Part shown: positions 6,068 to 13,283 of the stretch, one piece after another
How the letters are laid out: each line of letters opens with the position of its first letter
Position numbering within the stretch: the first letter of the stretch is position 1
Assembly: GCA_020722945.1 (NCBI GenBank)
Contig: DYJV01000025.1
Coordinates: 1-32,607 of the forward strand
Direction of reading: 5' to 3'
Source: Candidatus Methylomirabilis sp.
Lineage (GTDB): Bacteria; DYJV01
DNA length: 32,607 nucleotides
Notes under the pieces: model-generated
Database searches by the model: none
Told to the model about the DNA's origin: nothing
Seen by the model: the letters and a program-made list of their open reading frames with translations, nothing else
Made by a program: the position numbers and the translations under genes

Positions 6068-7010
6068 TTTGCTCCTCCATAAATTTGGATTTATTATCTT
6101 CAACAAATTCGAGTAAACCATAAAAAAATGAAAAATGAAAGAAAAAATTTTTGCTATCTTTCCCGTAAAAATTTTCAAAATTCTCTTTGATTGTGAGGCT
6201 GGGTTGATACCTTGAGCTAATTTCTAATCCCTTTCTGGTGATATAATTTAAATGGCTATCTATCTTCTCTGATACAGAAAAATTTCTTATTCCATGTCCG
6301 GGGTATATATCAGATTGTATAAAGTTTTTAAGTTTATTAAGGGTTGCAAAGTAATTTGAAAAATTTCTGCAACTTTTCCCGTTTGAATCAAATTCAAGAA
6401 CAGGAGTTACAAACACTTCATCTAATATGGTATCTCCAGTTATCAACGAATCTTTATATAAAAAACCAGAACTTCCTGAAGTATGCCCCGGTAGATGTAT
6501 TGCTTTGATTTGACTCTTCTCAAAGGGGATTATCTGGTTATCTGAAAATGTTGTTGGCTCTGTTATTGTATTGCCAAATTGGTAAAAATTGCTGAAAAAA
6601 ATATCTAAATTTTTGAATAACTCTTGTGGAAATTGAAGTTGTTGTAGTAGGTTGCAGAAAGTGTTCTTCTTTAATTCTAATTTTTGTTGAGTATTTAGGA
6701 TGACTTTTTCAAGATCGTTATTGTGTATAAAAACTTCTGTGAGATACTTCTCTCTCATTATCCCTGCAAACCCATAATGGTCAACATGTCCATGAGTGAT
6801 GAGAATCCTCTTTATATCGCTAAAGTAAATTTTATGATTTTCAAGCCACCACTTGAGATAGTTGTTTGATACTTCACTGATGGGACCTGGATCAACAAGA
6901 GTTATGGGATCCTCTTTTATAAGATAGCTGTTTACCTTCTTGTATGTGAAACTTGAAGGTAGAGGTATCTCAATTACTGCTATTGAGATTGCAATCCCTC
7001 CCGATATCAA
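6048..7010 (-). CDS. MBL-fold metallohydrolase (glyoxalase II / LACTB2-like)
   Basis: A metallo-beta-lactamase fold with the binuclear metal signature THGHVDHYG (72-80, numbered from TTG 7010), HLPGHTSGSSG, LITGDTILDE and a final YPGHG. A C-terminal helical region follows, as in LACTB2/glyoxalase-like members. The substrate is unknown; overlap with meaB suggests a role near acyl-CoA metabolism (a thioester hydrolase is one option). The start is uncertain. The longest frame uses TTG at 7010, inside meaB, with no ribosome site before it. Family-like sequence begins about residue 13 (IEIPLPSSF), where ATT at 6974-6972 overlaps the meaB TGA. No ATG or GTG is available there. Confidence 0.85.
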   Translation of the reverse strand: MISGGIAISIAVIEIPLPSSFTYKKVNSYLIKEDPITLVDPGPISEVSNNYLKWWLENHKIYFSDIKRILITHGHVDHYGFAGIMREKYLTEVFIHNNDLEKVILNTQQKLELKKNTFCNLLQQLQFPQELFKNLDIFFSNFYQFGNTITEPTTFSDNQIIPFEKSQIKAIHLPGHTSGSSGFLYKDSLITGDTILDEVFVTPVLEFDSNGKSCRNFSNYFATLNKLKNFIQSDIYPGHGIRNFSVSEKIDSHLNYITRKGLEISSRYQPSLTIKENFENFYGKDSKNFFFHFSFFYGLLEFVEDNKSKFMEEQNVKEEY

Positions 7011-7944
7011 AATTTATTTTGTTGATAATATTGCTCACAACTTCGTATGGATTAGCCAGCTTATCCTTGATATCATTAATCAGGGTGTTATGGCTATCAT
7101 AAACTTTTTGTAGGATATTTTCTTGTATATCATTTTGAAGGAGTTTGAGAAACATCATCTCCCTTCTTTTTTGAGTAATTTTGCTGTAAGCTCCTGTATC
7201 AATAAGGAAATTTTTGTGGTTGTATATCTCATCAACCGCTTCCTTTACCCCTTTGTTGTAAAGGGCAATAGTCTCTTTTATTGAAGGAATCTTTCTATCT
7301 TTGTAAAGGTTTTTACTTAATTCGAGCATAGCTTGAAGCTCTCTTTTGGTTTTTGCAGCTCCCTCTCTGTCAGCTTTGTTGAGTATAAAGAGATCTGCTA
7401 TTTCAAGGATACCTGCTTTAATTGCCTGAACATCATCACCCATGCCGGGTATTACAACAACTATGGTGGTGTGTGCAGTATCAATGATCTCTATCTCGTC
7501 CTGTCCTACTCCGACTGTCTCGACTATGATTATAGTTTTGCCCATTGCATCCATTACATCTATTATCTCATTTGTAGAACTTGAAAGACCACCGAGATGA
7601 CCTCTTGTAGCAAGACTTCTGATAAAAACATCGGGATTGTCGCAGTGAGACTGCATCCGTATTCTATCCCCAAGAATTGCTCCACCTGAAAATGGGCTTG
7701 AAGGGTCAATTGCTATTACTCCTACTTTCTCCCCTCTCTGTATAAACTCTGAGATCAGCTTGTCTGTAAGAGTGCTTTTACCTGCACCCGGAACTCCTGT
7801 AATCCCTATTATGTAGGCGTTGCCTGTATATGGGTAAATTTTTTTTAGTTTCTCTCTGTAATTTGGGGTTTTGTCATCTATCTCCCGCATAAGTCTTGCA
7901 GCTGTCCGTAAATCACCCGATGTAAGCTTGTTAATAAAATCCAT
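6970..7944 (-). CDS. meaB: Methylmalonyl-CoA mutase-associated GTPase MeaB (ArgK family)
   Basis: The 324-residue G protein has the P-loop GITGVPGAGKST (47-58), the family block DPSSPFSGGAILGDRIRM, the switch element ETVGVGQDE and the base-specificity motif NKAD. MeaB loads and protects adenosylcobalamin in methylmalonyl-CoA mutase using GTP. It lies 41 bases downstream of the B12-binding mutase subunit on the same strand, the classical association. A gggag ribosome site precedes the ATG at 7944. Its C-terminal codons overlap the MBL frame. Confidence 0.96.
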   Translation of the reverse strand: MDFINKLTSGDLRTAARLMREIDDKTPNYREKLKKIYPYTGNAYIIGITGVPGAGKSTLTDKLISEFIQRGEKVGVIAIDPSSPFSGGAILGDRIRMQSHCDNPDVFIRSLATRGHLGGLSSSTNEIIDVMDAMGKTIIIVETVGVGQDEIEIIDTAHTTIVVVIPGMGDDVQAIKAGILEIADLFILNKADREGAAKTKRELQAMLELSKNLYKDRKIPSIKETIALYNKGVKEAVDEIYNHKNFLIDTGAYSKITQKRREMMFLKLLQNDIQENILQKVYDSHNTLINDIKDKLANPYEVVSNIINKINFDIGRDCNLNSSN

Positions 7945-7985
7945 TTTAAAAGTCTCCCTTTATAAATCAGTATGTGTGGTAGATG

Positions 7986-8396
7986 TTATACCTTTGGCGT
8001 AACATTTTTGAGAACCCAGTTGATAGTATCCTCAATCTTTGACCCTGGGAGAAAAATCTCTTTTACTCCTATATTTTTGAGAGCAGGGATATCGTCTTCA
8101 GGTATTATGCCGCCACCCCAAACTATGATATCATCTGCACCTTTTTCTTTGAGCATCTCCATAACTTTTGGAAATAGATACTCATGAGCACCTGCAAGAC
8201 TGCTTAACCCTATTGCATCAACATCTTCTTGAAGTGCAGTCATTACGATCTGATCAGGGGTCTGGTGAAGCCCTGTGTATATAACTTCAAAACCTGCATC
8301 TCTTAATCCTCTTGCGATTATCTTTGCTCCTCTGTCGTGACCGTCAAGACCCGGTTTTGCGATTAGGATTCTAAGTTTTTTGTTAATTTGAACCAT
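7986..8396 (-). CDS. B12-binding (small) subunit of a methylmalonyl-CoA-type mutase
   Basis: The 136-residue protein is a stand-alone cobalamin-binding domain. [11 protein letters not shown] (15-25) contains the D-x-H-x-x-G motif whose His20 coordinates cobalt, followed by [10 protein letters not shown] and the VWGGGIIP Rossmann glycine segment. Two-subunit mutases of archaea and many anaerobes use such a subunit with a separate catalytic chain of about 550 residues. That chain is not in this window. The start at 8396 has GGAGG 5 bases upstream and overlaps the HD-GYP gene by 14 bases. Methylmalonyl-CoA is favoured over other acyl-CoA mutases because of meaB, but isobutyryl- or ethylmalonyl-CoA types cannot be excluded. 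Confidence 0.92.
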
Positions 8397-10045: not shown

Positions 10046-10096
10046 AAATTTCTATCTGTTTGATTGCAGATAATTTTATCTTTTAAAGGGGGGAGT

Positions 10097-11920
10097 ATGC
10101 AAAAAAGAAAAGGTCTTAATATTAACAAAATTATGCAGATACAAGAGAAAAAATTTCCTCTTATAGATGTTAAAGAGCCAAATCTTTTGAGAGAGCTCTT
10201 CCCATACAGTGAAGTTCCCAAAATAAAAGTTGAAAATAATGTTGTATTACAATTAATCCCTAATGATATATTTATTACTGATACTACTTTCAGGGATGGA
10301 CAGCAAGCAAGACCCCCTTACACTCCTGAGCAGATTGCAACTATTTTCTCTTACCTTCATAAATTGGGGGGACCAAATGGCATTATCAGAAAATCTGAAT
10401 TTTTTCTTTACTCTGATAAAGATAAAAGAGCATTAGAGCTTTGTCAGGAGAAGAACTACAAATTTCCTATTATAACTGGCTGGATTAGAGCAAATAAAGA
10501 GGATTTTAAGCTTGTAAAACAGATGGGTCTATCAGAGACAGGTATTTTGACATCTGTATCTGATTATCATATATTTCTAAAGCTCAAGAAAACAAGAAAA
10601 GATGTTATGAAAGAGTATCTTGAAGTTGTTGAAGAGGCTTTAGAAAATGGAATTACTCCAAGATGCCACTTTGAAGATATTACAAGAGCTGATATTTATG
10701 GCTTTGTTCTCCCATTTACTCAGAAGCTTTTACGATTGCAGGAGCAGGGCGATATCCCAATAATATTAAGGTTATGTGATACTATGGGGTATGGTGTTCC
10801 TTTTCCATTTGTATCACTTCCGAGAGGGGTTCCAAAGCTTTTCAGAGTGTTTGTTGATGAGCTTGGTGTTGAATCTAAAAATCTTGAATGGCATGGGCAC
10901 AACGATTTTCATAAAGTTCTTGTAAATGGGACTGCGGCATGGCTTTATGGCTGCTCTGCTGTAAATGGGGCACTATTTGGTTTTGGAGAGAGAACAGGGA
11001 ATACTCCAATAGAGGGTTTGATATTTGACTATATTAGCATAGTAGGTAGTAGCAATGGTATAGATACAACTATCATTACAGAACTCAAAAATTATTTTGA
11101 GAGGGAGATAAATTACCATACCCCCCCTAATTTCCCATTTGTTGGTTCTGAGTTTAATATTACAAGAGCGGGGATACATGCTGATGGTCTTACAAAAAAT
11201 GAAGAGATTTACAATGTCTTTGATACAACTACCCTCCTAAACAGACCTCCAGGGGTAGCCATCAATGACAAATCTGGAGCTGCAGGTATTGCTCATTGGA
11301 TTAACTCTTATTTTGGGTTTAAAGGTGATTCTGTGATAGAGAAACATCATCCAAGTATAATCAAGATTTATACATATATCAAAAATCTTTATGAGCAGGG
11401 GAGAATAACATCTTTGTCCTCTGAAGAGATGGAGAAGCTCGTAAGGAAGTATTTCCCTGAATATTTTGTTTCTGAATTTGATGTTATAAAAGAGAAAGCT
11501 AAAAATATGATGAAAAAACTTATAAATGAGTTGATAAGCAACCGCTCATTTAAAGATTTTCATATTGATGAGATGGAGAAAGAGTTAAAGACCTTGCTCT
11601 TCGAAAATAGTTTTATCCAATTTGCTTATGTTGTTGATCTTGAAGGGAATCAGATCACAAAAAATATTACTCAACTTGATGAGATGAACAAATACTCTTT
11701 AAGCTGGGTAAGGGGCAACCTTGCAGATAGAGATTGGTTTATTACTCCTCTAAAAACTGGTAAACTATTTATCTCAAACCTTTTTACATCAAAAATTACA
11801 GGGGATCTCTGTGTAACAGTGAGTAACCCTATCTGGAAAGCTGATGACGAATTAGCAGGGATACTTGGACTTGATATAAAATTTGAAAAATTGCTCGAAA
11901 TAGAGAATAGCCTCGAGTAA
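10097..11920 (+). CDS. Re-citrate synthase-like HMGL-family enzyme with C-terminal Cache/PDC-like domain
   Basis: 607 residues from ATG 10097 (aggggggag ribosome site; the frame also opens at TTG 10064, which lacks one). Residues about 50-420 are a DRE-TIM/HMGL catalytic domain: DTTFRDGQQARPPYTPEQI (62-80), SEFFLY, RCHFEDITRADIYGFV, metal-binding WHGHND (266-271), GERTGNTPIEG and HADGLTKNEEIYNVFDT. These blocks fit the Re-citrate synthase group (Clostridium kluyveri type) better than LeuA or homocitrate synthase. Re-face condensation of acetyl-CoA and oxaloacetate is therefore the first guess. The LeuA regulatory domain is absent. Residues about 500-600 instead look like a Cache/PDC ligand-binding domain (GNLADRDWF, then CVTVSNPIW and GILGLDIKFEKL), but with no signal peptide or TM segment. 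The family is often mislabelled histone-lysine methyltransferase; no SET domain is present. Confidence 0.85.
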   Translation: MQKRKGLNINKIMQIQEKKFPLIDVKEPNLLRELFPYSEVPKIKVENNVVLQLIPNDIFITDTTFRDGQQARPPYTPEQIATIFSYLHKLGGPNGIIRKSEFFLYSDKDKRALELCQEKNYKFPIITGWIRANKEDFKLVKQMGLSETGILTSVSDYHIFLKLKKTRKDVMKEYLEVVEEALENGITPRCHFEDITRADIYGFVLPFTQKLLRLQEQGDIPIILRLCDTMGYGVPFPFVSLPRGVPKLFRVFVDELGVESKNLEWHGHNDFHKVLVNGTAAWLYGCSAVNGALFGFGERTGNTPIEGLIFDYISIVGSSNGIDTTIITELKNYFEREINYHTPPNFPFVGSEFNITRAGIHADGLTKNEEIYNVFDTTTLLNRPPGVAINDKSGAAGIAHWINSYFGFKGDSVIEKHHPSIIKIYTYIKNLYEQGRITSLSSEEMEKLVRKYFPEYFVSEFDVIKEKAKNMMKKLINELISNRSFKDFHIDEMEKELKTLLFENSFIQFAYVVDLEGNQITKNITQLDEMNKYSLSWVRGNLADRDWFITPLKTGKLFISNLFTSKITGDLCVTVSNPIWKADDELAGILGLDIKFEKLLEIENSLE

Positions 11921-12023: not shown

Positions 12024-13283
12024 ATGGGTAAAACGCTTGTTGAAAAAATTATAGGCATGAATGCCAACAAATCTGTCACAGCAGGGGAGATAGTCGTGGT
12101 TCCAGTGACTTCTTGCCTTACACAAGATGGGACAGGACCTCTTGCGATAGATCAGATAATGAAACTTTCTGGTGGGACAATCAAAAATCCAAACACAACT
12201 TATCTCTTTATAGACCATGCATCTCCAAGTCCAAGAAAAGAGCTCTCTAATGACCATAAAAAGATAAGAAATTTTGCTCAAAAAACAGGTGCTCACCTTT
12301 TTGATATAGGTGATGGTGTTTGCCATCAGATTGTTGCTGAGAAATTTCTAAACCCTGGTGAGATTTTAATAGGAGCTGATTCCCATACATGCACAGGTGG
12401 CGGGTTGTCTGCTTTTGCTACAGGTATGGGTTCGACAGATGTTGCTGTTGGGATAGCCTATGGGAAAACATGGCTTAGGGTTCCTGAGGCAATCAAGGTT
12501 AATATTTCTGGTAAATTTAAAAAAGGTGTGTATGCAAAAGATTTGATTCTATTCCTTATAGGTAAAATAGGTGCTGATGGAGCCACATACAAATCACTTG
12601 AATTTGGGGGAGAGAGTCTTGAATACCTCCAGATGAATGACAGACTTACACTTGCTAATATGGCTGTTGAGGCAGGTGCTAAATGTGGATTGTTTCCTTC
12701 AGATGCCATTACCAAACAGTATCTTCAGCAGAGGGGTAGAGGTGACAAATTTATCTCTATAAATATGGATAATGATGCAAATTATCAAAGTGTCATAGAT
12801 ATACAACTTGATGACCTTGAGCCTATGGTATCTTTCCCACACACTGTTGATAATACAAGGAAAATTACAGATAAAGATTGTAATGATATCAAAATAGATC
12901 AGGTATTTATCGGGACATGCACAAATGGCAGGATTGAAGATCTTAGAATTGCTGCCTCTATTTTAAAAGGGAGAAAAGTTCACCCAGGGACAAGGCTCAT
13001 AGTTACACCTGCATCGAGAGAGATTTTCTCTAATGCTATTGATGAAGGGCTACTCAAAATTTTTAATGAAGCTGGAGCTTCAATCAATAATCCTGGTTGT
13101 GGAGCTTGTGTTGGTGTCCACCAAGGGATACTCGGAGATGATGAAAATTGTCTATCTACTCAAAATAGGAATTTTCATGGTAGAATGGGTAATACAAAAG
13201 GGAACATATTTTTATCCTCTCCAGCTACTGCTGCTGCATCTGCTGTAGAGGGTAAACTTACAAACCCTATAAAATATCTATAA
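12024..13283 (+). CDS. Aconitase / homoaconitase / 3-isopropylmalate dehydratase large-subunit family protein
   Basis: The 419-residue protein is a LeuC/HacA-type large subunit. It has ADSHTCTGGGLSAFATGMGSTD around 118-140, with the first Fe-S cysteine, then FIGTCTNGR and NPGCGACVG with the other [4Fe-4S] ligands, and the active-site block GRMGNTKGNIFLSSPATAAASA near the C-terminus. It lacks the swivel domain, supplied in this family by a separate small subunit (LeuD-like), and none is encoded next to it. Placement 103 bases after the Re-citrate-synthase-like gene makes citrate to isocitrate (aconitase) a reasonable guess; homoaconitase or isopropylmalate isomerase cannot be excluded. A taaggga ribosome site precedes the ATG. 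Confidence 0.88.
   Translation: MGKTLVEKIIGMNANKSVTAGEIVVVPVTSCLTQDGTGPLAIDQIMKLSGGTIKNPNTTYLFIDHASPSPRKELSNDHKKIRNFAQKTGAHLFDIGDGVCHQIVAEKFLNPGEILIGADSHTCTGGGLSAFATGMGSTDVAVGIAYGKTWLRVPEAIKVNISGKFKKGVYAKDLILFLIGKIGADGATYKSLEFGGESLEYLQMNDRLTLANMAVEAGAKCGLFPSDAITKQYLQQRGRGDKFISINMDNDANYQSVIDIQLDDLEPMVSFPHTVDNTRKITDKDCNDIKIDQVFIGTCTNGRIEDLRIAASILKGRKVHPGTRLIVTPASREIFSNAIDEGLLKIFNEAGASINNPGCGACVGVHQGILGDDENCLSTQNRNFHGRMGNTKGNIFLSSPATAAASAVEGKLTNPIKYL

Follow-up and report, generated by a model that had tools for sequence, protein, structure and literature searches.

Sensor domains of this Cache type normally serve bacteria in the extracellular sensing of amino acids. Within the window analyzed here (the whole 32,607-nucleotide stretch of DNA), a gene of 607 codons at 10097..11920 (+ strand) was annotated as a probable Re-type citrate synthase with a C-terminal cytoplasmic Cache domain. 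This locus raises the questions of whether such a fusion is genuine, which reaction the enzyme catalyzes, and what the domain might sense. An HMGL synthase with its usual regulatory domain replaced by a cytoplasmic Cache domain is real and conserved. No paper describing a fusion of citrate synthase with a Cache/PDC sensor was found in the open-access literature, which is weak evidence of novelty since key biochemical papers lie outside it. A description of a cytoplasmic Cache domain was likewise not found there, and the literature searched gave no account of how the Re-type citrate synthase of anaerobes is controlled allosterically.

Gene and domain architecture

The open reading frame is uninterrupted, starts with ATG at 10097, and has a strong ribosome-binding site immediately 5' of it, seen in the sequence itself as the Shine-Dalgarno-like stretch AAGGGGGGAG (10086..10095, + strand). 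An HMGL-like match (Pfam PF00682, E 8e-27) covered residues 59-332 (10271..11092, + strand), a TIM-barrel catalytic domain that was also evident from invariant columns and structure alignment. Catalytic residues were compared by alignment with the LiCMS, LeuA, and homocitrate synthase structures, and R66, D67, E193, D194, H266, and H268 were invariant in 58 sequences. The intact HMGL catalytic set that a preliminary description of this DNA had placed in the N-terminal part is borne out by the profile match and by these metal and catalytic residues. Using the alignment of 58 sequences, the whole protein was modelled by AlphaFold2 with a mean pLDDT of 90, and the catalytic part grouped with homocitrate and isopropylmalate synthases in Foldseek. 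A helical linker (residues 442-480, 11420..11536, + strand) was delimited using the AlphaFold2 secondary structure and the ends of tailless enzymes.

The C-terminal domain, hereafter the tail (residues 487-607, 11555..11917, + strand), was identified as a cytoplasmic Cache/PDC domain using PF22673, AlphaFold2, and Foldseek. MCP-like_PDC_1 (PF22673) matched residues 517-599 with an E value of 2.6e-10 (41.1 bits against a Pfam cut-off of 27), and dCache_1 scored slightly below its cut-off (40.1 bits against 45); both models were matched by 63 of 63 tails in the alignment of relatives. The isolated tail was predicted by AlphaFold2 with a pLDDT of 89 and a pTM of 0.82, and its nearest PDB structures by Foldseek were the sensor domains of KinD, Tlp3, Mlp24, and PctA, as well as part of YkuI. 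The tail therefore has both a Cache profile above cut-off and a PAS-like fold with an N-terminal helix, arranged as a single lobe of about 115 residues instead of the two-lobe extracytoplasmic layout of dCache_1AA sensors. The profile search and structure prediction, which had been suggested as checks on a Cache/PDC-like C-terminal domain, agreed in placing it there. The motifs from which that domain had been proposed (R-D-W-F, C-V-T-V-S-N-P-I, and G-I-L-G-L-D-I) correspond to residues 545-548, 572-579, and 588-594 and include several of the most conserved columns of the family. The fusion of an HMGL synthase with a C-terminal Cache domain is confirmed as real, far beyond chance.

The maximum hydropathy over 19 residues was 1.15, so the window protein has no membrane helix; it is cytoplasmic, as previously described, and an extracytoplasmic sensor was ruled out. 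LeuA_dimer gave no Pfam match in the window protein, and the Cache domain stands in the place where LeuA-type enzymes have their feedback domain, an arrangement that had also been anticipated.

Assignment of the catalytic part

Three HMGL synthases were detected in the genome (98% complete) by searching with the window protein. The other two were LeuA and CimA, each a full-length model match above its NCBIfam equivalog cut-off; since both are encoded elsewhere, the window enzyme was rejected as a second LeuA or CimA. Its own best NCBIfam scores came from homocitrate and isopropylmalate synthase models, all far below cut-offs. These scores are what would favor a homocitrate or citramalate synthase, or one using another 2-oxoacid, over a citrate synthase, a reading that we regard as very improbable in view of the separate LeuA and CimA genes, the missing Si-citrate synthase, and the genomic patterns among relatives. 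The Si-citrate synthase family (PF00285) was absent from this 98%-complete genome, whereas 13 of the 14 genomes used as controls yielded a match in the same search. Across 148 Desulfobacterota genomes, the HMGL enzyme, tailed or tailless, was encoded by 74 and PF00285 by 74, with 11 genomes having both and 11 neither. The window-type enzyme and Si-citrate synthase were largely mutually exclusive in these genomes (Fisher p=1.5e-18, a value overstated by the non-independence of related genomes; the exclusion pattern is strong nonetheless).

The gene for an aconitase/homoaconitase-family large subunit (12024..13283, + strand; TIGR01343, E 1e-168), the proposed next enzyme of the pathway, starts 103 bases downstream. 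For this family, the genome encodes two large subunits and two small ones, and a larger aconitase gene was not found in it. One small subunit adjoins an isocitrate/isopropylmalate-dehydrogenase-like gene, interpreted as leuB. The other is located on contig C152 (L089), unlinked to the window, and carries the loop HLRS, also present in the small subunits of relatives' citrate synthase operons. Arginine at this site is associated with enzymes acting on tricarboxylates. The C152 subunit is the likely partner of the window's large subunit. Elsewhere in the window, a stand-alone methylmalonyl-CoA mutase-type B12-binding domain is encoded beside MeaB (6970-8396), where the last part of an HD-GYP response regulator gene overlaps its start, and a frame open at the window edge (1-342) encodes repeated VDKRFEQ units followed by a terminal hydrophobic helix.

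Among relatives, the order citrate synthase, aconitase large subunit, aconitase small subunit, isocitrate dehydrogenase was found at four loci (L007, L008, L016, L022), and aconitase and isocitrate dehydrogenase genes were downstream of the enzyme at two more (L013, L030). In several Desulfovibrio loci, the enzyme was followed by isocitrate dehydrogenase and an aconitase; Desulfovibrio vulgaris uses a Re-citrate synthase and has an incomplete TCA cycle (PMC12016533). Malate dehydrogenase and fumarase followed the enzyme at L023 and L164. The L164 enzyme and that of L165, which adjoins isocitrate dehydrogenase, are tailless, so these TCA gene contexts support citrate synthase function independently of the tail. 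Citrate synthase is the best-supported function of the window protein, which is almost certainly the citrate synthase of this genome, because PF00285 is missing, LeuA and CimA lie elsewhere, the neighbor is of the aconitase family, relatives have TCA operons, and Si-citrate synthase is mostly excluded. The same evidence upholds the Re-citrate-synthase-like identity given in the preliminary description, with the face itself assigned by family; Re stereochemistry is what membership in this family would predict.

Distribution of the tail and a second host

In a contig search, the tail was present in nearly all of the best 80 relatives, whose record labels included Nitrospirae, Deltaproteobacteria/Thermodesulfobacteriota, Spirochaetes, Omnitrophota, Elusimicrobia, Lentisphaerae, Fibrobacteres, Armatimonadetes, Termititenax (Margulisbacteria), and Auribacterota, among others. 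The tailed enzyme is present in many anaerobes, from about ten phyla. Overall, 83 of 100 enzymes compared had the tail, which rules out an isolated oddity or an assembly artefact. By phylum, the tail was found in 72 of the 74 Desulfobacterota genomes having the enzyme (the other two were tailless), in 29 of 31 Nitrospirota (the other two were left unassigned), and in 2 of 2 from the window's own phylum; the phylum of L083 had 17 tailed, 5 tailless, and 1 cut enzyme. In 29 Spirochaetota genomes, 11 copies of the enzyme were tailed and 20 were tailless; G370 (L166, L167) and G406 (L168, L169) had one copy of each form. The preliminary description had thus named a genuine fusion, and its proposed survey of homologues found the tail widely shared; as a singular fusion it did not stand, since this is the usual form of the enzyme in several phyla.

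The tailless relatives examined aligned only up to residue 455-462 of the window protein, and in one comparison up to 455-458; their end, near residue 457, marks the module boundary. Given that many relatives are without the tail, it is dispensable for catalysis in those relatives. When mapped onto a tree built from the catalytic part, tail presence changed at least 6 times against a shuffled mean of 15; as this tree has no root, a gain looks the same on it as a loss. The tailless relatives, together with the two spirochaete genomes having both forms, are natural controls for tail function.

The tail profile was searched in 198 Desulfobacterota genomes at a threshold of E 1e-14, and nine further tail-type domains were recovered besides the citrate synthases. 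Eight were C-terminal (L155-L162): seven in chemotaxis signalling proteins and one (L158) in a contig-edge fragment. MCPsignal was detected by Pfam in L155, L156, L159, L161, and L162 and by eye in L157 and L160. Hydropathy gave no membrane helix in L155, L156, L157, L159, and L160; L161 and L162 had hydrophobic N-terminal segments. The ninth (L163) was the N-terminal Cache domain of an ordinary membrane receptor. The L155-L162 tails keep the Arg, Trp, aromatic, Tyr, and Asp residues and grouped together as a single clade (support 99) in the tail tree, which, at 106 columns, is too short to order the chemotaxis proteins and the enzyme as first host.

Candidate ligand and proposed regulation

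In PctA numbering, the dCache_1AA motif comprises Y121, R126, W128, Y129, Y144, and D173, of which R126 is in contact with the carboxylate of the ligand, while D173 is one of the motif's key residues (PMC10104139). By profile alignment, R545-D-W547-F548 (11729..11740, + strand) corresponds to PctA R126-x-W128-Y129, with F548 at Y129, a structural position; F563 and the invariant S565 (11783..11791, + strand) lie opposite Y144 and D146; and the invariant D593 (11873..11875, + strand) corresponds to D173. The window tail thus reads G, R, W, F, F, and D at the six positions, with aromatics exchanged and glycine at that of Y121. At position 563, Phe in the window protein, 68 of 82 tails have Tyr. 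Trp, Asp, and Ser were each present in 82 of 82 tails and Arg in 77, and the set R, W, F/Y, Y/F, D was complete in 74. Positions G517, R545, W547, F548, S565, T568, L571, T574, and D593 hardly vary. Among 10 membrane Cache domains found with the same profile in the same genomes, Arg, Trp, and Asp occurred together in only 3, so the combination is not general to Cache domains.

An amino acid is, from these residues, the likeliest ligand. The preliminary description proposed an allosteric module for a small carboxylate; taken as one with no amino group (pyruvate, 2-oxoglutarate, acetate, or citrate), we hold such a ligand to be unlikely. In its favor are the best Foldseek matches, which were structures of the KinD sensor domain that include a pyruvate complex, the mutation of the equivalent KinD arginine (R131) by the depositors of the structure, and the consideration that a citrate synthase would naturally respond to 2-oxoglutarate and pyruvate. 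The pyruvate-bound KinD shares the Arg, but the Asp at the D593 position, found in every one of the 82 tails, is absent from it, and the Arg-Trp-aromatic-Asp set fits the amino-acid motif. An amino acid is favored over a small carboxylate because five of the six dCache_1AA positions are kept, including R545 and D593. Against an amino acid stand the Y121 position, where Tyr occurs in just 10 of 82 tails, the Phe of the window protein at Y144, and the absence of Arg from 5 of 82.

We would also give only a small probability to a tail that no longer binds any ligand and has a role solely in oligomerization or stability. Tailless enzymes exist, and conservation is clearly lower in the tail (38% mean identity to the window protein) than in the core (63%), as such a role might predict; however, the columns conserved best in the tail fall on the positions that form the pocket in amino-acid receptors, and chemotaxis signalling domains carry domains related to it.

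With modest confidence, we lean towards a Re-type citrate synthase in which an amino-acid-binding Cache lobe, with glutamate as the first candidate, provides end-product feedback. The enzyme would condense acetyl-CoA and oxaloacetate as the only citrate synthase of the genome, and the adjoining aconitase-family enzyme would take the product towards 2-oxoglutarate and glutamate. The cytoplasmic, dCache_1AA-like single lobe would substitute for the LeuA regulatory domain, and its pocket would be occupied by an amino acid derived from 2-oxoglutarate. R545 would bind the carboxylate of this ligand, and D593 would bind its amino group. From there, the signal may travel via the helical linker (442-480) into the catalytic part, where ligand binding would lower activity. 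We infer the allosteric role, the amino-acid ligand, its identity as glutamate, and the direction of the effect. The sequence itself points to no particular amino acid; glutamate was put first because the 2-oxoglutarate made via the enzyme leads to it and because D. vulgaris has an incomplete TCA cycle (PMC12016533).

We know of no lone distal Cache lobe for which regulation of a metabolic enzyme has been demonstrated. Should the tail prove to sense an amino acid, Cache domains would count among the modules that regulate metabolic enzymes, and ligands could be predicted from the dCache_1AA motif. The Cache domains of the chemotaxis proteins may also be linked to internal sensing and report the same signal as the enzyme tail. 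A broader proposal, which we find possible rather than probable, is that cytoplasmic single-lobe Cache domains form a widespread class responding to the amino acids inside the cell (glutamate first), giving end-product control of TCA entry in Re-citrate synthase and control of movement via soluble chemotaxis proteins.

Several known systems resemble the window protein in part. The Re-citrate synthases of Clostridium kluyveri, Syntrophus aciditrophicus, Dehalococcoides, and Heliomicrobium are HMGL-type enzymes that replace Si-citrate synthase (PMC12016533), and the window enzyme is of the same type with the same pathway position. LeuA and CimA share a related catalytic domain, a linker, and a C-terminal regulatory domain, whereas that domain is Cache/PAS-like in the window protein. 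The dCache_1AA receptors PctA, Tlp3, and Mlp24 share the ligand-binding distal-lobe fold, with five of six motif positions in most tails; the tail differs in being one lobe only, cytoplasmic, and on an enzyme, with Y121 mostly lost. The Bacillus subtilis KinD sensor (pyruvate), the top Foldseek match, has local similarity to the tail (for example, NLADRxxFI ... SxITG), but it is extracellular, part of a kinase, and larger than one lobe. The C-terminal domain of YkuI (PF10388), weakly matched by 30 of 63 tails, is also Cache-like on an enzyme-type domain, although that is an EAL domain and not an enzyme of central metabolism. The closest other hosts of the tail profile are the L155-L162 proteins with C-terminal Cache domains (E about 1e-23 to 1e-30), which have the same motif residues on an MCP signalling domain instead of an HMGL domain and form their own clade.
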